Positions 45,069 through 57,323 of a stretch of DNA of 64,000 nt are shown here, in pieces; the stretch's first letter is position 1, and every line of letters begins with the position of its first letter. The stretch comes from Haloarcula rubra (GTDB lineage: Archaea > Halobacteriota > Halobacteria > Halobacteriales > Haloarculaceae): assembly GCF_019599465.1 (NCBI RefSeq), contig NZ_RKLR01000010.1:1-64000 (forward strand), given 5' to 3'. Both the position numbers and the translations under genes were made by a program. The notes under the pieces are model-generated. The model was not told where the DNA came from. It ran no database searches and saw only the letters and a list, made by a program, of their open reading frames with translations.

Positions 45069-46649
45069 TCACCCGGCAGGGTCGGCGTGGGATTCCCGGA
45101 GTTCGACCTTGCGGATTTTGCCAGTGGATGTTTCGGGGAGGTCCTCGACGAACTCGACGACGGTCGGACACTTGAAGTGCGCGAGGTTGTCGCGGGCGAA
45201 CTCGATGACCCCGTCCTCGGAGAGGTCGGCGCCAGCGGCGGGCACGACGATCGCTTTGGGCGTCTCGCCCCATTTCTCGTGGGGGACGCCGATCACGGCG
45301 ACGCGCTCGATGTCGGGGTGGTTATAGAGGGCGTCTTCGACCTCGACGCTAGAGATGTTCTCGCCGCCGCTGATGATAACGTCCTTCTTGCGGTCCTTGA
45401 TCGAGATCATCCCGCGCTCGTCGATAGTGGCGAAGTCGCCGGTATGGAACCACCCGTCGACCCGGTCGGTGAAGGCCTCCCGGGTTCGCTCGGGTTTGTT
45501 CCAGTAGCGGTCCATGACCTGGTTGCCGCGGACGATTATCTCACCCATCGTCTCGTCGTCGGGCGGGACGTCATCGCCGTCCTCGTCGACGACGCGCAGC
45601 TCGGTCCCGAGCATGGCGTGGCCCTGTCTGGTCTTGATGGCGAGGCGACCCTCACTCTCGATTCGACGCGGCGAGTTGCTCGTCGTGATGAGCGGGCCGG
45701 TCTCGGTCAGCCCGTAGACGTGGAGGATGTTCCAGCCGAGTTCGTCCTCGACGGTCCGGATGGTGGCCTCGGGCGGCGGGCTGGCGGCGGTCGCGATCCT
45801 GACCGGCTTGTCACCGGTCGCCGGGACATCGTGGTCCTGGTAGTGGTCGACCATCGAGTTGAGAACCGTCGGCGCGCCACAGAGGTAGGTCACGTCGTGG
45901 GCCTGGATGCGCTCGAAGGCGCCCGCTGCGTCGAAGTGGCGCTGGCAGACGTGCGTCCCGCCGACGCCAGTGACGACGTAGGGGTAACCCCACCCGTTGA
46001 CGTGGAACATCGGGAGCGTCCAGAGGTAGGCGTCGTCGTCGGTGACCTCGGTGTGGTGCGCGGTGATCAGCGCGTGCCAGTGTTCGGTGCGGTGGGTTCG
46101 GACCACGCCCTTCGGCTCGCCGGTCGTCCCGCTCGTGTAGTTGATCGTCGCGGGGTCGTCCTCGGAGATGTCGGGGCGCTCTGCCTCGTCGGGGTCAGCC
46201 GCTGCAAGGAGCGATTCGTAGTCGCGCCAGTCGCCGTCGACGCGGTCGGCCGGGTTGGCGACGAACGTCGTGGCGGGGACCTGGTCGCGGACCGCCTCGA
46301 TCTTCTCGGCGTACTCGTAGTCGGCGACGACCGCCTGGGCCCCACAGTCGTCGAGAATGTACTCGTAGTCCTCGGCGATAAGCCGATAGTTGAGCGGAAC
46401 CGAGATGGCCCCGAGGACGTTGATCGCGTACAGCGTCTCCAGAAACCAGTGTGTGTTCGGTGAGAGTAGTGCCACGCGGTCGCCCGCCTCGATGCCGAGA
46501 TGCGCGAGCGCCGCCGCTGCGCGGTCGACCCGCTCGCCGAACTCGGCGTACGTGTACTCCGTGCCGTCGTGGGCAATCACGCCAACGGCGTCTCCGTAGA
46601 CATCGACCCCTCTGTCGAGGAAGTCGAGCGTCGTCATCGGTCGGTGCAT
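45069..46649 (-). CDS. Acyl-CoA synthetase (AMP-forming, fatty-acid CoA ligase type)
   Basis: 526 residues of the ANL superfamily; it activates a carboxylic acid to acyl-AMP and then acyl-CoA. Motifs are the P-loop-like INYTSGTTGEPKGVVRTHR near 169-187, MFHVNGWGYP, the adenylate motif HVYGLTETGPL near 318, GWFHTGDFATIDERGMISIKD with the hinge Asp, and the C-terminal catalytic Lys in ETSTGKIRKVELRE. The size and the MFHVNGW element match medium/long-chain acyl-CoA ligases. The ATG at 46649 has a TTTACGTCAT box 21-30 nt upstream. It diverges from a thiolase/DUF35 operon, so the two units probably belong to one acyl-CoA degradation or synthesis route. Confidence 0.92.
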   Translation of the reverse strand: MHRPMTTLDFLDRGVDVYGDAVGVIAHDGTEYTYAEFGERVDRAAAALAHLGIEAGDRVALLSPNTHWFLETLYAINVLGAISVPLNYRLIAEDYEYILDDCGAQAVVADYEYAEKIEAVRDQVPATTFVANPADRVDGDWRDYESLLAAADPDEAERPDISEDDPATINYTSGTTGEPKGVVRTHRTEHWHALITAHHTEVTDDDAYLWTLPMFHVNGWGYPYVVTGVGGTHVCQRHFDAAGAFERIQAHDVTYLCGAPTVLNSMVDHYQDHDVPATGDKPVRIATAASPPPEATIRTVEDELGWNILHVYGLTETGPLITTSNSPRRIESEGRLAIKTRQGHAMLGTELRVVDEDGDDVPPDDETMGEIIVRGNQVMDRYWNKPERTREAFTDRVDGWFHTGDFATIDERGMISIKDRKKDVIISGGENISSVEVEDALYNHPDIERVAVIGVPHEKWGETPKAIVVPAAGADLSEDGVIEFARDNLAHFKCPTVVEFVEDLPETSTGKIRKVELRESHADPAG

Positions 46650-46928
46650 GGTGTGTCAAGACGTGACGGTATGACGTAAAGGTCTTTCTCCCGGACGACG
46701 CGAACACGCGACCTCCACGGGCGGTAAAGGGCGTTTCTGGGGTTCCTAAGCCCTTAGGGGCTGATCCAGACACTGCACATTCAGCACGGGCCTATATGAA
46801 TAGGTCCCAATGTGGTAGGCCCCGACACACTCCAGAGACTGATGTCAAAATGGCATTTCCATCTAATGTTGTGGTTCAGGCGCGCACTGTCCAAACCATT
46901 ATTATCATTAGTTGAGGATTCCCAGACG

Positions 46929-48095
46929 ATGTCCACAGCTCATCTCATCGCGGTCGGGTCCTCTCCGCTGGGCAAGACAGACCTGCCTGGCCGGGATTTA
47001 TTCTCGAAAGCACTGGCCGAGGCCTTCGAGGACCTGCCCGATCCAGCCGACGTCGTCGACGCGCTGTACGTCGGCGCCCAGTCCGAACGGTACGAGAATC
47101 AGATCATGCAGGGTACGCTCATGGCCGAATGGGCCGGACTGCGGAACGTCCCCGCAGAGCGTGTCGAGGCGTGTGCAGCCGCTGGTGCGCTCGCGCTCAA
47201 GAACGCAGTCCGGGACGTTCGGGCGGGCGTCCACGACGCGGTGCTGGCCTGTGGCGTCGAGAAGATGACCGCCGGCGGGACCGAAGGTGCCACGAACGCG
47301 CTCGGTGCCGCCTTCGAGCGGGCCTTAGAACAGCGGTCCGGAATCACCGCGCCCGCCACGTACGCCCTGCTCGCGCGGCGGTACCTCCACGAAACCGACG
47401 CGACGGAACGGGACTTAGGCAGGATCGCCGTGAAGAACCACGGGAACGCGGCGGCCAACCCACGGGCGATGTTCCAGCAAGCAGTCGACATCGAGACTGT
47501 CATGGACGCTCCCGAAGTCGCTCCCCCACTGAAACTGTACGACTGTGCGCCGGTTACCGACGGAGCCGCCGCCATCGTCGTCGCAAACGACGAGGTCGCG
47601 GCCGACCTACAGGGCCGTCCCGATACGATCCGCGTGGCCGGCGTCGGATCGGCAGCCAACAACCTCGCCGTCGCGGAGCGCGACCTGACGTTCGTCGAGG
47701 GGGCGAACGTCGCTGCCTCCACCGCCTACGAGGACGCCGGCGTGGGCGCCGCAGATATCGACGTCGCGGAAGTCCACGACGCCTTCACCGTCTGTGAGGC
47801 ACTGCTGGCCGAGGCCGCCGAGTTCGCTCCCAAAGGTCGCGGAATCGAGACCGTAGAGGTGCCTGGGGACCGGTCAGCGGGCTGGACCGACGTCCAGATC
47901 AACACCAGCGGCGGACTGAAGGCCCGTGGACACCCTATCGGGGCGACCGGGCTGTTGCAGGCCGTCGAAGCCTACGAACAACTCACTGGACGAGCCGGTG
48001 AACGGCAAGTGGCCGACGCCGACACTGCGCTGCTCATCAACGAAGGTGGCGTCGCGGACGCTCATACCGTGGCCACCGTCCTGACTGCACAATGA
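46929..48095 (+). CDS. Thiolase (acetyl-CoA C-acyltransferase, SCP-x-like)
   Basis: 388 residues. The nucleophile Cys is in RVEACAAAGALALKNAVRD (near 80), the HDAFT active-site His is in VAEVHDAFTVCEALL, and the C-terminal INTSGGLKARGHPIGATG gives the GHPxGATG motif. This is the archaeal SCP-x/acetoacetyl-CoA thiolase type, which condenses or cleaves acyl-CoA. Such thiolases usually pair with a DUF35 OB-fold/zinc-ribbon protein, and one follows with an ATGA overlap, so the complex is very likely. An AT-rich TTATTATCATTAG box about 20-32 nt upstream supports the ATG at 46929. Confidence 0.92.
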   Translation: MSTAHLIAVGSSPLGKTDLPGRDLFSKALAEAFEDLPDPADVVDALYVGAQSERYENQIMQGTLMAEWAGLRNVPAERVEACAAAGALALKNAVRDVRAGVHDAVLACGVEKMTAGGTEGATNALGAAFERALEQRSGITAPATYALLARRYLHETDATERDLGRIAVKNHGNAAANPRAMFQQAVDIETVMDAPEVAPPLKLYDCAPVTDGAAAIVVANDEVAADLQGRPDTIRVAGVGSAANNLAVAERDLTFVEGANVAASTAYEDAGVGAADIDVAEVHDAFTVCEALLAEAAEFAPKGRGIETVEVPGDRSAGWTDVQINTSGGLKARGHPIGATGLLQAVEAYEQLTGRAGERQVADADTALLINEGGVADAHTVATVLTAQ

Positions 48096-48586
48096 CCGAC
48101 GATAGTGACTCACCGATGACAGACACCGAAAACACGACGACGGGACCGCTCGCACCGGAAGACATCACTGCCGACTCGGCGTTCACGCTCCCGGGCTTCT
48201 TCGACGCGTTATCTGAGGGCCGATTGTTGGCCGCCCGCTGTACCGAGTGTGATACACATATGCTCCCGCCTCGCCCCGCCTGTTACGGCTGTGGCAGCCG
48301 AGCAGTTACACTATCGGAACAGCCCCGAACCGGCGAGGTAATCTCGTACACGTCGGTCAACCGACCCCCGTCTGCGTTCGAACACTTAGCGCCGATCACC
48401 GTTGCAGTGGTCGAACTCGACTCATCGGCTCGGCTTACGGGTCGCGTTGCCGCTCCGCTTGATGACGTCAGTATAGGCGACCGCGTCGAACTCAGAGTCA
48501 GAGATCCCGAGACAGTCGATATCGATCCGGACTTCGACCTGTCCTACGAGGAGGAGTGGCCGATTCACGTCTTCGAACTGATGTGA
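48092..48586 (+). CDS. Zn-ribbon/OB-fold (DUF35) thiolase partner
   Basis: 164 residues. The rubredoxin-like zinc knuckle is ARCTECDTHMLPPRPACYGC near 49-68 (two CxxC pairs), followed by an OB fold (GEVISYTSVNRPPSAFEHLA, ITVAVVELDSSARLTGRVA, VSIGDRVELRV). Proteins of this family bind CoA and form a channeling complex with an archaeal thiolase (and HMG-CoA synthase). It overlaps the thiolase gene by 4 nt. An N-terminal ~30-residue acidic extension precedes the domain; a second ATG nine codons in (48116) is an alternative start. Confidence 0.92.
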   Translation: MTDDSDSPMTDTENTTTGPLAPEDITADSAFTLPGFFDALSEGRLLAARCTECDTHMLPPRPACYGCGSRAVTLSEQPRTGEVISYTSVNRPPSAFEHLAPITVAVVELDSSARLTGRVAAPLDDVSIGDRVELRVRDPETVDIDPDFDLSYEEEWPIHVFELM

Positions 48587-49032
48587 ACGGCCAGACACTG
48601 TCGACGTCCTTTTCGGATGAACTCGTGACCTGGTCGACTGGAGCCATACCGTCCAGAACTGATATATGGCGTCACTGGCCGCGGCGACAAGTGGGACCAC
48701 GTCGCTGAACACACAAGCCGCTAGTTTCTCTGGACAGGGCAACCCAATGGCGACGACGAAGTGAGTGGCAGGAATTGATACGCGCGGTGTATACAGCATA
48801 CGCCACTCAGAGAAGAGCAATCACCAATTGAGGCACTATCATCAGTTCTGTTAGTGAGACCGCCACCAGTTTAGAGCTAATCTCAGGTTCTGTCATAAAC
48901 TCCGTACTCAATACAGAGGATGTACGCTGCACAGGGATTGTGTTCCTTTCATATCGAAGTCACTGAACCACTGCCCAGTATGGGTGGGGGAGAGACCAAC
49001 AACAGTTAGGTTCCATCCCTCAACAATGTAGG
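48587..49032. other. Intergenic stretch with third copy of a recurring motif
   Basis: 446 nt with no recognised gene. GAATTGATACGCGCGGTGTA followed by TACAGCATACG at 48772-48802 resembles segments near 43370 and 44745. Nothing else seen. Confidence 0.4.
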
Positions 49033-49884: not shown

Positions 49885-50148
49885 CGGCAGCATACGACCG
49901 AATCAATTTGTAGGTCGCGATTGATATCAGCAGTCGCCGACTGATGACCAGTTTATTATCTACTATCAGTATATGTTAATATTGCATTCTTAGTAGTATA
50001 TATGGTTAGAACCTGATATCAGCCTCTAAATATCCCCACATGAAATGAACTTCATTTCTGAAAGAGATCTTCAGTCTAAAACTCGGCAATATAAACATAG
50101 TCAGCCCAAAAACCTATGCAACTAGTGCCGATATAGGTTTCCTAAACA
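49885..50148. other. AT-rich spacer at the start of the accessory island
   Basis: 264 nt, strongly AT-rich (49960-50130), with many TATA-like runs and no gene. It marks a composition change between the core-like genes to the left and the accessory genes to the right. Confidence 0.45.
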
Positions 50149-50352: not shown

Positions 50353-50537
50353 ACACTGTTATCTCAGCCCTACGATAAATATCTTCTATAGCTCAGACCG
50401 TATCGAAACGTCCAATATCTTCTGCTATCCCGATTGAAGCCTCACACTTCTCGAAAACATATCTAATATCTACTATTATTTGAGTAACGTAAGTTATCTA
50501 CTAAAATTATTAACATTTCGGGCGTCGTTCTGCAGTT
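50353..50537. other. AT-rich promoter region of the HNH/NurA operon
   Basis: 185 nt with divergent promoters. ATTATTAACA near 50507-50516 lies 22-31 nt before the GTG at 50538 and is the probable TATA element of the operon. Confidence 0.4.
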
Positions 50538-52343
50538 GTGAAAGCGCCCTACACCCGTATCGACGACAGAACCAGCCTCAACGCAATCTTCGACGAAGTA
50601 GACTGGGAACTTGGGTCGAATCTTGCGGTCAAAAAGCCGATGGCGAATGTGCTGACGCTTCAGTCTGCGCCCCCTACTGTAGAAGGTCGATCAATCACGG
50701 GGACAGCAGATAGCCCGTTCATCTGCGCAGCTGAATTCTCTCAGTCTCATCACTGGCCGACGGCCGGCGTCTGGGAGGTTCTCGATGCAGAGACAGCCAC
50801 GCTTTGGTTGGTCGACGGCCGGACGATCCGTGACTGGCCGTGGGCGGTGTATAGCGCCGTTACCGACACGGTGGCAGAAACGGTTGGATTATCGGGAGAC
50901 CGTGTCAGCACACTCCTCAGCAGTACGGCAGCCCGGTTAACAGAGAAAATGCTGGATCGTGGGCCAATTCGACAACCGTCTGACTATCGCGAACACTATC
51001 ACCGACATGGCTATCGGTGGACGGTCGACAGGGTCGACCGTCGAAGTCTCGAATCGTTTATTCGGTGGAACTTCCTCAACCATCCCCAACGACGAGATAA
51101 CGAGGCCCAGACTCTCGAGTGCATAATCACCGGGCTCCGGTACATGGCGACCCAACTTCGGGCTGAAGCAGATATCGTCGAACATCTGGACAGACCATCT
51201 GATGAGCGGCCCCGGCTCAGTCGACAGCCGTTCATTCGGATCGCGTATCCGACCGACACACATCGGCGCGAAACGAACGTTGCAGTCCGATCCCACACTG
51301 ACCTGCAGGCAACAAAATTGAATCCTATCGAGACAGATGTTGCCACGGCTATCGAAGGCGTCGAGTCAGCCCACGACCTCGATATCGTCCACTCACCAGT
51401 CGAGGTCTGTTCACAGCCGGCTGAGGTAATCGACGCTGGGAAGGCATCCGATATTGCGCCCGTTCGGGTGGGGGCAGACCGATGGGAACGTGCCCACCCA
51501 ACCGAACTGGAAGCGCACTCGCGGACGACGAGCGACGCTGTTCGGCGTTTCATCATCACCCGGCTCGGACTCGATCCGAACGAGTCGCAGTTCGAGCGCG
51601 TGTTCATACACTTAGTGCAGTACCTCCGTGAGGTAGGCGGGCTCCAACCGAGAGCACCGAGTTGTGCCGCTAGTCAGCAACTGCGAACGCTCACTGGGTC
51701 TACCGACCTGCCTCTGCCGCTTCTCCACTGGTGTGCTGTGACGGGGTTGTTCGGAATTCCGACCTTCGAGACGCCCGACCTGTTCACCGCGTTGCCGTAC
51801 AGTCACACCCTGTCCGCTGCTGCAGAACGCCTGCACCGCCATCATTCGACTGTTCGAAATCTCTGTCGTGGCTGTGGGACGTACTTCGACGTCGATCCGG
51901 AGTCGCCAAGGTGGACCTGTGAACGCTGTTCACCCGAAGTGAGTCCAACGCTGGAGCGGACGGAACTATCGGCGTTCGAGGCGGATCAGGAATCACACTG
52001 TTACATCTGTCTCTCGCCAGTTGCTACTGGTCAACTCCAACGGCATCACATAATCCCACGAGACGTCTTCGAGGATGACCGTGTCAGGGATAGACCAGTC
52101 AATACGGTCACCGTCCACGCTGCCAAGTGCCCCGGGCATCCACACGCAATCTCCCATCAAACATTGGATGCGGATATCGACAGAGCGTGGAACCACCAAC
52201 TAGTCGAACACGAACCAGCACGCTGGTTCAATCTCACACATCTTGCCTGGGTACTCCACGAACTCGGCGACCAGATGGCCCCACCGACTCGTCAGCGAGT
52301 GATCGAACTTATCTACCGAATGTGGACCGAACAGTTCGAATGA
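50538..52343 (+). CDS. Large protein with zinc ribbon and HNH-type nuclease-like motif
   Basis: 601 residues, GTG start supported by a promoter box. The N-terminal ~430 residues match nothing I recognise. They include SHHWPTAGVWEVLDAETATL, LWLVDGRTIRDWPWAVYSAV and a His-rich EHYHRHGYRW. Near 444-466 is a zinc ribbon (CRGCGTY ... WTCERC). Near 490-525 a further CYICLSP with QLQRHHIIPRDVFEDD and NTVTVHAAKCPGHPH has the His-His/Asn/Cys-His order of HNH endonucleases. The stop overlaps the next gene's start (ATGA), tightly coupling it to a NurA-family nuclease. A DNA-processing or defence role is inferred. The N-terminal part may be a new domain. Confidence 0.75.
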   Translation: MKAPYTRIDDRTSLNAIFDEVDWELGSNLAVKKPMANVLTLQSAPPTVEGRSITGTADSPFICAAEFSQSHHWPTAGVWEVLDAETATLWLVDGRTIRDWPWAVYSAVTDTVAETVGLSGDRVSTLLSSTAARLTEKMLDRGPIRQPSDYREHYHRHGYRWTVDRVDRRSLESFIRWNFLNHPQRRDNEAQTLECIITGLRYMATQLRAEADIVEHLDRPSDERPRLSRQPFIRIAYPTDTHRRETNVAVRSHTDLQATKLNPIETDVATAIEGVESAHDLDIVHSPVEVCSQPAEVIDAGKASDIAPVRVGADRWERAHPTELEAHSRTTSDAVRRFIITRLGLDPNESQFERVFIHLVQYLREVGGLQPRAPSCAASQQLRTLTGSTDLPLPLLHWCAVTGLFGIPTFETPDLFTALPYSHTLSAAAERLHRHHSTVRNLCRGCGTYFDVDPESPRWTCERCSPEVSPTLERTELSAFEADQESHCYICLSPVATGQLQRHHIIPRDVFEDDRVRDRPVNTVTVHAAKCPGHPHAISHQTLDADIDRAWNHQLVEHEPARWFNLTHLAWVLHELGDQMAPPTRQRVIELIYRMWTEQFE

Positions 52344-53668
52344 CGCACTTCAACCGCGAGCATCACGTTATCGAGGCAGCTTTCGAGGAACTGGCCTCGC
52401 GGGTCGCCCAGTCAACCAGGACCGCGCCGACGGCCGACGCCGTCTGGGAGTGCATTGACGAGGCGGGATCAGACGCACTCGTGTCACTGGTTGGTGAGTC
52501 ACCCACGATTCGGACACTGTCGCACAACGCATTCGCGGATATCGATCCAGTCCGGCCAGCATACGGACTCGACGCCGGATCAACCGGTGGGATTCAGTTA
52601 CAGTCCGGCCACCGTGTCTGCCGCTGTCGTTCGATGTTTGGCGTGCTCGGCGAGAAACGAGACGTCTGGGCCGACCAGACGTTGCTCCACTCGGCTATCG
52701 ACCCGTACCCAGGGACTGAACAGTACTACTCTTCGCGGATAACGAGCCGGGGCTATGGCGATGCCCGAACACGAAGCCACGTCGTTGCTTTGCCGAGTCC
52801 GACGGACGGTCGTGAGACCGACGAGCTCGTGACGCTGTTGCAGTTTTTGGCCGAGGCGCTGCACCTACAGGCGTGTGTCCACCAGCTCGATGGTCCACTC
52901 TACCTCGATGGGGCGTTGCTTCCATTGGGGCTGGCCAGTCGGCTACAGTTTTCCAGCGATACCGCGACACGAGACTCACCGTGGTTAGAGCTCGCCAGAG
53001 TCGTGTTGGCTACCTTTGCGACAGCGATAGCGGTTCACCTCGAACACGGGCACCGTGTGTTCGCGGTCGCGAAAACGCAAGAGACGAATGCGCTTGTAGG
53101 AACACTCAACGAACGTATCACAGCGGGAAAGACAGAGGTGAGTGCTGTTCGGCCGACGTCAGCAGCCGATGCAGTGCTGCCGTGGCAAACGGACCGCCAG
53201 TTCATCAGCCAATTGCTTGCTGAACAGGTCTCGGACACTGCACCGGAAACGACTTGGACCTATACGCCGTGGTTGGCACAACCAACACTGCCAGCCCCAC
53301 ACGCAGACCATCGACGGCATCCGCTTGCCGAGGTGGCCTTGTCGTATGTACCACAAGAATTGCTGTCGCGGGCCTACTTTTTCGTCAGAATTCCGAACCA
53401 GAACGGGCTCTACCGTATCGAGGCGCCATTGCCGACGATTCAGACAGTCACACAGGGTGAACGAGAGCGCTTACAGCGTCTCGTCATGCGGGAAATGGCA
53501 CAGACCAAGGGAACTGCCCAGCCAGTCGCACGGGCCGATGAGAAAGTGCGGCTTGGGTATGCTGCGCGAGAAGAGGTGCAAGAGACTGTCGAACGAGTGT
53601 TCGACGCGGCCGGTATCACTACCCAGCGTGTGCCCGCCCACAATCGGGACATTCGCTGGCAACACTAG
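52340..53668 (+). CDS. NurA-domain 5'-3' nuclease family protein
   Basis: 442 residues. NurA motifs are the metal-binding Asp in PAYGLDAGSTGG (near 78), DGPLYLDGALLPLGLASRLQ (Asp near 184 and 190), and HRVFAVAKTQETNALV with the conserved Lys near 245; a late RAYFFVRIPNQNGLYRIEAP corresponds to the C-terminal strand pair of the family. NurA normally works as a ring with the HerA hexameric translocase to resect DNA ends, or in HerA-based defence systems. No HerA/FtsK-like ATPase is present in this window; the partner here is the HNH-like protein, overlapping by 4 nt. It may recruit HerA encoded elsewhere or work differently. Confidence 0.8.
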   Translation: MTHFNREHHVIEAAFEELASRVAQSTRTAPTADAVWECIDEAGSDALVSLVGESPTIRTLSHNAFADIDPVRPAYGLDAGSTGGIQLQSGHRVCRCRSMFGVLGEKRDVWADQTLLHSAIDPYPGTEQYYSSRITSRGYGDARTRSHVVALPSPTDGRETDELVTLLQFLAEALHLQACVHQLDGPLYLDGALLPLGLASRLQFSSDTATRDSPWLELARVVLATFATAIAVHLEHGHRVFAVAKTQETNALVGTLNERITAGKTEVSAVRPTSAADAVLPWQTDRQFISQLLAEQVSDTAPETTWTYTPWLAQPTLPAPHADHRRHPLAEVALSYVPQELLSRAYFFVRIPNQNGLYRIEAPLPTIQTVTQGERERLQRLVMREMAQTKGTAQPVARADEKVRLGYAAREEVQETVERVFDAAGITTQRVPAHNRDIRWQH

Positions 53669-53909: not shown

Positions 53910-54347
53910 CTACTCGTTCCAGAATGCCTCGATCCGTTCGTCAAGACTGGTGAGGACGGTGGCGAGTACGTCCCGCCACTCGTCCGGATAGTCCTCGTCC
54001 TCGCCTGGTGTCGATGCATCCGGGGGCGGGTGGAAGTGCTCGCGGGTGGTGTGGTCGTTCGGGTGACGCTCCCAACGGCGATCCCAGGATTCCCCCGTTT
54101 GGTATTGCTCGGCGTAATGGATGTTGACGTCGTCAGTCTCGAACCACCGGATCCGAAGATATGCACGCGTAATCCTGCTGGGGAAGTAACCGAGATCGTA
54201 GTCGGCGACGACGGCGTTCGGTGCATACGGGGGACGTGCTTGCACATCGTCGAAGCGAGCGCTTCGGGTAAGGTGCGCGGCAATGCGGTCGAGAAGTTCA
54301 GTATCGATAGGGCCGGTATTGGGCGGATCAGCCGGGTTGTCAGGCAT
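53910..54347 (-). CDS. TumE-like toxin candidate
   Basis: 145 residues. NAVVADYDLGYFPSRITRAY, LRIRWFETDDVNIHYAEQY, RWERHPNDHTTREHFHPPPD and DVLATVLTSLDERIEAFW recall the TumE (DUF6516) toxin-like family, whose members also show a repeated His-rich core with an ending of the type 'VL..L..RI..FW'. Its ATG at 54347 overlaps the stop of the upstream winged-helix gene, the arrangement of a toxin-antitoxin operon. TumE toxins of bacteria are translation-directed RNases; that activity is inferred here only. Alternative: haloarchaeal conserved protein co-acting with its regulator. Confidence 0.65.
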   Translation of the reverse strand: MPDNPADPPNTGPIDTELLDRIAAHLTRSARFDDVQARPPYAPNAVVADYDLGYFPSRITRAYLRIRWFETDDVNIHYAEQYQTGESWDRRWERHPNDHTTREHFHPPPDASTPGEDEDYPDEWRDVLATVLTSLDERIEAFWNE

Positions 54348-54909
54348 CGATGGGACCAGGAGTGCCACCAGAGACTGGGTGGTCACGCCGCGCCGCATCT
54401 AGAAGCGCCGCTCTACGTTCGAGCGTTTTCCATTCCGAGAGTGCCTCCCACGCGTCTTCCGTTGCCATGTCCCGACTGACTTCGACGAGAGAGACCGCGT
54501 CCGGATCGTCTGCCTCAAACTGTTCCCTGTAATCTTCGATTTGGTCGATGGCGTCCGAAAGCGCCTCGACGATTTCTTGTTCAGAGTAGTCCTCGCGGAT
54601 GCGATCGATCCGTCGCCACTCGAAGTACGCGTCGTTGCGCTCGTATCGGACCGGGCGGCCGCTGTGGCGGTGAACCAGCCCCATCTCGTCGAACCACTCT
54701 AGGTAGTCTCGGGCGGTTTCGGTATCGCAGTCAGCGAGATCAGCGATGTCGGACACTTTCGTAGGTGTTCGAAGTTCGGTGACGACGTCGAGGAGTCGCT
54801 CACGGATCGGCCCGCCCTTGAGCAGCGAGTCAGGCGACTCTAGCTCGTCGATGTCTGGCGGTGCTTCGTCGCCAGCGTACGCGTCGTCGGGAATATCAGT
54901 GATGTCCAT
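54340..54909 (-). CDS. Winged-helix regulator, antitoxin-like partner
   Basis: 189 residues. An acidic N-terminus (DAYAGDEAPPDIDELESPDS) precedes a winged helix near 32-85: IRERLLDVVTELRTPTKVSD, IADLADCDTETARDYLEWFD, MGLVHRHSGRPVRYERN. A helical tail (EIVEALSDAIDQIEDYREQF; WEALSEWKTLERRAALLDAA) probably binds the partner or dimerises. The overall design is common in haloarchaea with a small downstream gene like the one here. A TATATA box near 54946-54952 would give a leader of about 12 nt. Autoregulation is likely by analogy with TA operons. Confidence 0.75.
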   Translation of the reverse strand: MDITDIPDDAYAGDEAPPDIDELESPDSLLKGGPIRERLLDVVTELRTPTKVSDIADLADCDTETARDYLEWFDEMGLVHRHSGRPVRYERNDAYFEWRRIDRIREDYSEQEIVEALSDAIDQIEDYREQFEADDPDAVSLVEVSRDMATEDAWEALSEWKTLERRAALLDAARRDHPVSGGTPGPIDA

Positions 54910-55127
54910 TCGCGAGGCCTCCTTGCTATGACCTATCGCTTGAAGCGGTATATATCTACTGAACACTGAATTATTTCTGCTTCATTCTAAATCCGGCGAG
55001 GTACCACGCATCTCATCCCCGGATTGCGGTTTCATGTCCGATTCTGTGCAGTCACATTGTCCCGTCAATACGTTGCGACGAAGATGGTAGCGCGATGAGT
55101 CGGTTAACTGGGTTCAATCACTTCGAA

Positions 55128-55167: not shown

Positions 55168-55246
55168 GCCTGCTCGTCTCCCCCGTCCGCGGCAGTCGCA
55201 AGGCTAAAGCAGGCCCGTGTTTATACTCTATGTAAGAAACGCAGGT

Positions 55247-56077
55247 ATGGGCACCATAGAACAATTGCAGAATATACGCCAGGGCCTCTCGACTCGAGAA
55301 AGTCGACTCCTTGCACGACTCGCTGGCGCGGGTCACCAGATCATCTCCGTCGACGACATCGAGACGACGCTGGAGGTCCCCCCAAACACCGCCCGCGAGA
55401 TTGCCTCCCGGCTCACCGAGAAGGGCTGGCTCGACCGGCTCTTCCCGGGCACGTATCTCATCATTCCACTCACTGCCGGCGAGGAGGCCGTGTACACAAC
55501 CCATGAGTACCTCATCGCGGCCCACGTCGCCGAGCCGATGTATATCGGCTACTACAGCGCCCTCAGCCACCACGGGCTGATCGAACAGGTCCCCCGGACG
55601 GTGTACGTCGTCACGCCGACCCGAGCGCAAAGCCGGGAGATCCACGGCGTCCCGTACCGCGTCACGACAGTCACCGAGCGGAAATTCTTCGGCTTTGAGC
55701 CGACATCGATCGAGGGCACGACCGTTCAGGTCAGCGGCCTGGAGAAGACGCTGGTCGACTGTGCGGACCACCCCGAGTTCTGTGGAGGCCTTCGGGAACT
55801 TGCGACCGCGATGCGTACTGCCGACGAACGGGGGTGCGACTGGGTCACTGTCGGCGAGTACCTCGAACGCCTCGACAACGGCGCTGCGACCAAGCGGATC
55901 GTCTACCTCGCCGACCAGCTCGGCATCGACCTCCCCGCCCGCGAGGAACTCGTCGCGTCTTTCACGAGTGGGTACTCGCTGCTGGACCCGACGCGGCCCG
56001 ACACCGGATCGACCGACAGTACGTATCGCCTCCGAATCAACGTCGAGCCAGCCATGCTGGAGCCGACGGAGTCCTGA
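55247..56077 (+). CDS. abiEi: AbiEi-type antitoxin/regulator of a type IV toxin-antitoxin system
   Basis: 276 residues. N-terminal winged helix (LSTRESRLLARLAGAGHQII, DDIETTLEVPPNTAREIASR, LTEKGWLDRLFPGTYLI) and the AbiEi C-terminal domain (YIGYYSALSHHGLIEQVPRT, VYVVTPTR, GLEKTLVDCADHPEFCGGLR). AbiEi proteins bind inverted repeats in their own promoter and oppose AbiEii without direct contact. Here an inverted repeat lies upstream (55128-55167) and a TTTATACT box near 55220-55227, 20-27 nt before the ATG at 55247. The toxin gene follows after 5 nt. Confidence 0.88.
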   Translation: MGTIEQLQNIRQGLSTRESRLLARLAGAGHQIISVDDIETTLEVPPNTAREIASRLTEKGWLDRLFPGTYLIIPLTAGEEAVYTTHEYLIAAHVAEPMYIGYYSALSHHGLIEQVPRTVYVVTPTRAQSREIHGVPYRVTTVTERKFFGFEPTSIEGTTVQVSGLEKTLVDCADHPEFCGGLRELATAMRTADERGCDWVTVGEYLERLDNGAATKRIVYLADQLGIDLPAREELVASFTSGYSLLDPTRPDTGSTDSTYRLRINVEPAMLEPTES

Positions 56078-56082
56078 TCGCG

Positions 56083-56886
56083 ATGATCAGTCAGGACCGG
56101 CTCCGGATTCTCGCTCGCGAACTGGGCGTTCGGCAAGGGTACGCCGAAAAGAACTACGTCAATTCGTGGCTCCTCTGGGGCATCTTCACGAGCGACTACG
56201 GCGACAACCTCCTGTTCAAAGGCGGGACCGCGCTGTCCAAGCTGTATTTCCCGCAATCGTGGCGATTCTCGGAGGACCTCGATTTTGGCGTCGAAGGGGA
56301 GTACCAGGGGTCCAAACAGGAGCTCCAAGCGGTCCTCGATACGATTGCCGACCGCTCTGGCATCGAATTCGAGATTCGCGAGCACCACGAATCCCAGCAG
56401 AACCACTATCCAACCCACTACGTCGACATCAGCATTCAGTACCGGGCCGTCCTCAGCCACCCCAACACGATCAGCATCGACGTGATGGTCGACGAGCACG
56501 TCGCCTTCGACCCTGTTCAGCACTCTCACGCGTACGAAGACGTGCCCGAATTCGACCTTCAGGCGTACAGCGTCGAGGAGATCTTCGCCGAAAAGCTCCG
56601 AGCGATCTACCAGCGCGGGGCCGCCCGTGACTACTACGACCTCTATCAGCTGCTCGAGACCGATTCGGTCACGATCAACTTTGCCGACGTGGGGCCCGCC
56701 CTCGACGCGAAGTGCAAACACGATGGGCTCACCGTTGATCTGAACGACGGACTCCCGGACGAGCAACAAGAAACGATCAGCCACCAGTGGGAGACTACGC
56801 TGCCGGACCTGACCGGTGACCCGCCGGCGTTCGAAATGGTCTGGGAACAGCTGGACACGGCAATCTCCCGACAGGGATCGTCGTAG
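56083..56886 (+). CDS. abiEii: AbiEii-type nucleotidyltransferase toxin
   Basis: 267 residues. The nucleotidyltransferase core has LLFKGGTALSKLYFPQSWRF (near 44-63) and SEDLDFGVEG (metal-binding Asp pair), with third acidic strand TISIDVMVDEHVAFDP. Further AbiEii marks are YSVEEIFAEKLRAIYQRGAARDYYD, split as EEIFAEKLRAI and ARDYYDLYQLLE (Lys and Asp-Tyr-Tyr-Asp). Members modify tRNA or other targets by nucleotide transfer and stop growth, protecting populations from phage. It is the second gene of a two-gene operon and is followed 57 nt downstream by inverted repeat IR2. Confidence 0.9.
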   Translation: MISQDRLRILARELGVRQGYAEKNYVNSWLLWGIFTSDYGDNLLFKGGTALSKLYFPQSWRFSEDLDFGVEGEYQGSKQELQAVLDTIADRSGIEFEIREHHESQQNHYPTHYVDISIQYRAVLSHPNTISIDVMVDEHVAFDPVQHSHAYEDVPEFDLQAYSVEEIFAEKLRAIYQRGAARDYYDLYQLLETDSVTINFADVGPALDAKCKHDGLTVDLNDGLPDEQQETISHQWETTLPDLTGDPPAFEMVWEQLDTAISRQGSS

Positions 56887-57323
56887 GCAACGGCCGATAT
56901 CGGTGTCGATGGCCGATGGGTGTTGCATCCGGAGCTCTGGTGATTAACCAACAATTCGGGATATCTGGCTGGTGCGTTGGTTAACTTTGGCTGGCGAATC
57001 CACCGAGTCAATCGTTGATTGTCTCGTTATCGGGTCTTTCCGCAGTTCTACATAAGAGCGAGATAGTCAGACATGCCACCGACCGTGCTCTAGTAAAAAC
57101 TGCAGGCTGGACACTGCACACGTCACGCCTGTTGTGACGGGGAGATGTAGCGCGAGAGCGTTGCGTGCGTTACGAACACACGCGACGACTCTGTACAGAA
57201 GGGGGCGCTGCCGGTTGCTGTGGCTAGCGTAGCCGGGCGTCGGCGGCGGCAGGGCACGTGCAACCGCGTCCAACTGCAGTAGGTGGAGACGTTTGCGTGG
57301 CTATCCAGTCGCTGTCACAGGGC
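56887..57323. other. Intergenic region after the AbiE module
   Basis: 437 nt containing inverted repeat IR2 (56944-56984) and no recognised gene. Minus-strand frames near 57067-57273 are Arg/Pro/Leu-rich with no domain. Confidence 0.4.
56944..56984. repeat. Inverted repeat IR2 (TTAACCAAC ... GTTGGTTAA)
   Basis: Nine-base perfect arms at 56944-56952 and 56976-56984 with a 23-nt interior. Arms equal those of IR1; the interior shares pieces (CAAT, GATAT, CTGGT, GCGTTGG) with IR3. It follows the AbiEii stop by 57 nt, so the pair IR1/IR2 brackets the AbiE operon. Confidence 0.75.

Follow-up and report, generated by a model that had tools for sequence, protein, structure and literature searches.

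The window analysed here, i.e. the opening 64 kb of a contig of 115 kb from the 4.67-Mb genome of the haloarchaeon Haloarcula rubra, a congener of Haloarcula marina, carries a pair of overlapping genes in which a NurA-family nuclease is coupled not to the HerA translocase but to a 601-residue protein with a zinc ribbon and a probable HNH domain (Table 1). We propose that the pair may be a mobile, plasmid-type, two-gene DNA-destroying cassette that cuts incoming or competing DNA and then degrades it, a reading to which we would assign a probability of roughly 0.45. What is understood of NurA concerns, almost without exception, its role as the nuclease of HerA–NurA, and a HerA-free, re-partnered NurA, if true, would show which parts of the protein serve the motor and would provide a minimal system for its own activity.

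Table 1. Coordinates of the gene pair and of neighbouring features within the window.
Feature	Coordinates	Strand	Remarks
Candidate promoter element TTATCTACT	50494..50502	+	Same sequence and spacing in H. marina
Gene 1	50538..52343	+	GTG start, 601 aa; residues 1–430 without family match, C-terminal zinc ribbon and HNH-like domain
Zinc ribbon CxxC...CxxC (C443, C446, C461, C464)	51864..51929	+	4 of 4 Cys identical in the H. marina relative
HNH-like motif C488-x2-C491 ... H503-H504 ... N522 ... C531-x2-H534-x-H536	51999..52145	+	Weak profile matches and alignment
ATGA stop/start overlap of genes 1 and 2	52340..52343	+	Sequence; kept in H. marina
Gene 2, NurA-family nuclease	52340..53668	+	ATG start, 442 aa; D78, E172, D190 and D400 intact
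DUF7342 HTH protein and 162-aa protein, separate cassette	53910..54966	-	Alone in four Haloarcula genomes, 81–82% DNA identity
AbiEi/AbiEii type IV toxin–antitoxin, separate cassette	55217..56886	+	PADLOC AbiEi E = 6e-97, AbiEii E = 8e-95

The overlap of the two reading frames described in the first-pass annotation was recovered in the window, and the same ATGA junction is found in the sole other copy of the pair that we detected, which lies intact on the plasmid NZ_CP100405.1 of H. marina DT1. Between the two copies the amino acid identity is 59% for protein 1 and 76% for NurA; within protein 1 it is 52–54% in the N-terminal parts and 75% in the C-terminal third. The Nei–Gojobori dN/dS values for the window against H. 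marina are 0.31/1.55 for gene 1 and 0.17/2.5 for NurA (ratios of about 0.2 and 0.07), with dS being saturated. As the genes are conserved together with dN/dS well below 1, the pair is real and not a product of chance, and both of its members are maintained under purifying selection. The candidate promoter element TTATCTACT is located exactly 44 nt 5' of the gene 1 start codon in both genomes, while the DNA around it has otherwise diverged. The codon usage of the pair is unlike that of most of its neighbours (a per-codon score of about 0 compared with the typical 0.1–0.3). The AT-rich flanks reported initially exist on the left side (37% GC at 49890–50148 and at 50353–50537, in a window of 60.5%) but not on the right one, where the GC content is 56%. 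A conserved third gene upstream of the pair was considered and rejected, the segment 50149–50352 and the H. marina gene at that place, which encodes a nucleotidyltransferase-like protein, being unrelated on inspection. No methylase-type marker of self and non-self was seen in the pair operon.

The gene pair was present in 2 of the 391 genomes of the class, and our pair-level inferences rest on these two loci. Scans of viral and GTDB contigs for short exact peptide patterns, which distant relatives of protein 1 may escape, and of phage and plasmid records yielded nothing beyond H. marina. When the C-terminal domain of protein 1 was used in a profile search across the phylum, it matched the window's own genome only, and we found no paper describing an HNH–NurA pair in the open-access literature. 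Short weak matches to protein 1 in other haloarchaea (G122, G033, G132, G159, G273 and others) were set aside, which leaves the H. marina protein as its one clear relative among all the sequences searched; G122 and G033, the two that were inspected, proved to be an off-frame segment and a zinc ribbon belonging to a small unrelated protein, and the remaining ones were dismissed on length and score alone.

The two copies of the pair were acquired or replaced separately (i.e. are xenologous) rather than inherited in place from the ancestor of the two species, since the dS of the pair (1.5–2.5) is about four to six times that of the core HerA between H. rubra and H. marina (0.416) and that of a ligase–thiolase–OB-fold module found near the pair in both genomes (0.37–0.42). 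This module of acyl-CoA ligase, thiolase and OB-fold genes (45069–48631 in the window, 6672–10287 in L080; 88–89% DNA identity) lies 2–5 kb from the pair in both genomes and is inverted relative to it. Reading the shared neighbourhood as vertical inheritance of the pair was rejected on the dS values; the proximity would be accounted for by an insertion hotspot common to both genomes or by replacement at an old site. H. marina YSSS71 (NZ_CP100408.1) lacks the 54.0-kb segment of the DT1 plasmid (116,900–170,912) in which the pair lies; the junction is clean and falls at the 9-bp GACGTCGTC (L132 12868–12876 compared with L133/L135), just 5' of a short histidine-kinase gene. This difference may have arisen by deletion from one H. 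marina strain or by insertion into the other. The pair is mobile, plasmid-type and sporadic in its distribution. Its occurrence in 2 of 391 genomes, its variability between strains and the xenology of its copies bear out the view that this is not a housekeeping repair locus. They also speak, together with the lack of repair genes at the pair locus, against a plasmid-borne accessory module for DNA repair, which we consider decidedly improbable even though the nearest NurA relatives sit with Mre11, Rad50 and HerA, known for end processing.

The product of gene 2 scores 18.3 bits (E = 0.0018) with the Pfam family PF09376, below the curated cut-off of 21, which is a convenience threshold and not a defining biochemical feature. 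Since 27 of the 29 aligned members of its group match Pfam NurA, the best of them with E = 1e-20, the protein is a divergent NurA and not foreign to the family. The model computed from the 29-sequence alignment (pLDDT 81, pTM 0.84) resembles the NurA of S. solfataricus (2ygk, Z 19.6 over 294 residues), that of T. kodakarensis (9x1m, Z 19.2) and a third NurA structure set (3taz, Z 16.8); the NurA-like chain of TdpAB follows with Z 14.5 and the Argonaute rows with about 10. Residues D78, E172, D190 and D400 are invariant across the 29 members, D78 being, to judge from the motif, the probable counterpart of T. kodakarensis Asp49. The predicted fold and the catalytic residues firmly support the assignment to NurA that had been made at first reading, with an intact active site. 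A BLAST-type search yielded a NurA-like match in 361 of the 391 class genomes, most being core NurA with E around 1e-8 and about 40 being second copies with E down to 4e-33; set against this count is the statement of a 2020 review that Haloferax volcanii has neither HerA nor NurA (PMC7776575). The pair NurA, which is the second NurA of its genome, shares 26% identity with the host's own core NurA and 25–29% with its nearest sequence relatives, encoded in Mre11–Rad50–NurA–HerA operons. In the tree its branch is long, and which branch lies next to it is not certain.

HerA is present neither in the 64-kb window nor at the pair locus of H. marina, and in this respect the original observation of a NurA without its usual partner stands. 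Each of the two pair-holding genomes has a single HerA, that of the window genome being on another contig, where the core NurA of the host lies near it with two genes between. Among the closest NurA relatives, HerA adjoins the nurA gene in 35 of 35 loci, mostly in the order Mre11–Rad50–NurA–HerA; these are the fetched HerA-linked second-copy NurA loci L038–L073, of which L048 has no NurA call. Because HerA adjoins every one of these homologues, which have NurA only in common with the pair, and is absent at the pair loci, the pair NurA has been re-partnered; it would be a paralogue derived from HerA-linked operons. Such second-copy operons occur in about 35 of the 391 haloarchaeal genomes, separately from the core HerA and NurA; some of them stand beside an OLD-family-looking ATPase (cluster 5) or unidentified genes that recur (clusters 4 and 11), and the operons have the look of a mobile system of four genes.

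The pair NurA terminates two residues past a conserved RW, whereas most of the HerA-linked NurAs extend further as an acidic tail, and it differs at P239, F346, L383, P393 and A403, where the HerA-linked set shows little or no variation. In T. kodakarensis NurA the contacts with HerA include C-terminal residues (PMC12977600). The missing tail and the differing residues suggest that the pair NurA may no longer depend on HerA. They also weaken, as does the low identity to the host's own NurA, the explanation that the pair NurA works with the single chromosomal HerA while protein 1 is an adaptor targeting HerA–NurA to specific DNA. We regard that explanation as unlikely, but it draws on the presence of exactly one HerA in each pair-holding genome, on the intact fold of the pair NurA and on the behaviour of the T. 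kodakarensis enzyme, which alone cuts only ssDNA, and slowly, and needs HerA for dsDNA (PMC12977600).

Concerning the partner that would take the place of HerA, the first-pass annotation had noted zinc ribbon and HNH-like motifs preceded by a large unrecognised N-terminal region, and both observations were upheld. Residues 1–430 gave no family match when protein 1, entire and cut into segments, was compared with the profiles of Pfam, NCBIfam, PADLOC and PHROGs. Sequence searches of the PDB returned nothing useful. The support for the HNH assignment is moderate. All of the residues C488, C491, H503, H504, N522, H527, C531, H534 and H536 are identical in the H. marina relative, and the ordered HNH feature (CxxC, H-H, N, C/H) is present in both copies of protein 1. 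The matches of the isolated C-terminal domain to Pfam HNH_5 (E = 0.01) and HNH (E = 0.07–0.1) and that of protein 1 to PHROG 8446, an HNH family (E = 0.0087), are below the cut-offs. An hhalign comparison of the domain with 15 haloarchaeal HNH domains reached E = 0.0013 in one case; 3 of 400 column shuffles scored as high, and the N-terminal stretches scored far lower. A regular expression for the HNH motif matched 0 of 200,000 shuffles, a result that counts for little as the pattern was written post hoc. The AlphaFold model of protein 1, made from two sequences, has a pLDDT of 29.5. Protein 1 is likely, on these sequence comparisons, to be a member of the HNH (beta-beta-alpha-metal) endonucleases, and we infer that it has HNH nuclease activity. 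Homing endonucleases often contain HNH domains, and gene 1 could be imagined as a selfish HNH gene, of the homing type or another, whose position beside a NurA gene is a coincidence. The length of 601 aa and the overlap with the same partner, conserved in two separately acquired copies, leave that idea with scarcely any plausibility.

The toxin–antitoxin island in which the pair had been placed is well supported for AbiEi/AbiEii and only loosely for the DUF7342 genes. The DUF7342 winged-helix gene overlaps the 162-aa gene of an unassigned family, and the two may form a toxin–antitoxin-like pair. The AbiE cassette (55191–56941) is 93–94% identical to plasmid sequences from Halobellus, Halopenitus and Halobacterium and has thus moved between genera recently. 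Neither cassette is part of the pair, and both travel independently of it. Scoring the two neighbourhoods for defence genes gave AbiE in the window and no defence gene beside the H. marina copy, and neither protein of the pair matched any defence model of PADLOC-DB 2.0 at E 0.1. Of the proposal that the pair is an undescribed DNA-processing or antiviral system, the two nucleases in one operon are thus retained, while the antiviral part found no backing in the PADLOC search or in the H. marina neighbourhood.

The proposed cassette would operate as follows. Protein 1 would bind its target through the N-terminal region and the zinc ribbon, its HNH-like domain would nick or cut the bound DNA, and the translationally coupled NurA would degrade the ends or single strands so produced, with no HerA motor of its own. 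The cut-then-degrade order is proposed because T. kodakarensis NurA alone is limited to ssDNA and a duplex-cutting partner would give it access; by cleaving duplex DNA, protein 1 would supply what HerA normally provides. The two proteins would presumably form a physical complex and cleave in this order, and the pair NurA would be independent of the chromosomal HerA. Use against incoming or competing DNA, in defence or in conflict between elements, appears most likely because of the sporadic, plasmid-type distribution; the neighbourhoods add little to a defence role, with AbiE at one of the two loci. The conservation of the ATGA coupling over a deep divergence speaks for the cassette, whereas the existence of two examples only, the position of the HNH match below the Pfam cut-off and the inability of T. 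kodakarensis NurA alone to cut dsDNA speak against it. We put forward more tentatively a wider idea: the pair would be an immune or element-conflict system of haloarchaea, so far undescribed, that works with two nucleases and without HerA, the place of this motor beside NurA having been taken by an HNH protein whose DNA-recognition region is new. If true, haloarchaeal plasmids may carry a DNA-targeting cassette of a new kind.

The archaeal Mre11–Rad50–NurA–HerA operon, including its accessory haloarchaeal copies, has the NurA family in common with the pair, which lacks HerA, Mre11 and Rad50 and has the HNH-like protein in the neighbouring place. TdpAB (8wfd) is a phosphorothioate-linked defence system composed of HerA-like TdpA and NurA-like TdpB. 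TdpB shares the NurA fold seen in our model, but it is paired with a HerA-type ATPase, which the pair NurA does not have at its locus. The operon of Thermus ICETh1 encodes the restriction enzyme Tth111II, the NurA-like TTC1878 and TdtA, and efficient DNA donation requires both the restriction enzyme and the NurA-like gene (PMC5365140). The mobile element and the endonuclease gene located 5' of a NurA-like gene are shared with the pair; the ICETh1 endonuclease is of type IIG. By analogy with this transjugation the pair might be a DNA transfer or plasmid-processing module, in which protein 1 nicks an origin-like site and NurA trims the product, and the plasmid location in H. marina would fit. 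We hold this to be quite unlikely, as ICETh1 possesses the HerA-superfamily pump TdtA, while neither locus of the pair has a HerA/FtsK-type pump equivalent to it or any other transfer gene, and no pump gene follows NurA, which is the second of the pair. The nurA–csm6–herA cluster of Pyrobaculum, located near CRISPR arrays (PMC3396285), is unlike the pair in its link to these arrays, in keeping HerA and in that Csm6 is not an HNH protein; in this cluster, as in the haloarchaeal pair, a NurA paralogue has been re-partnered with another effector nuclease.
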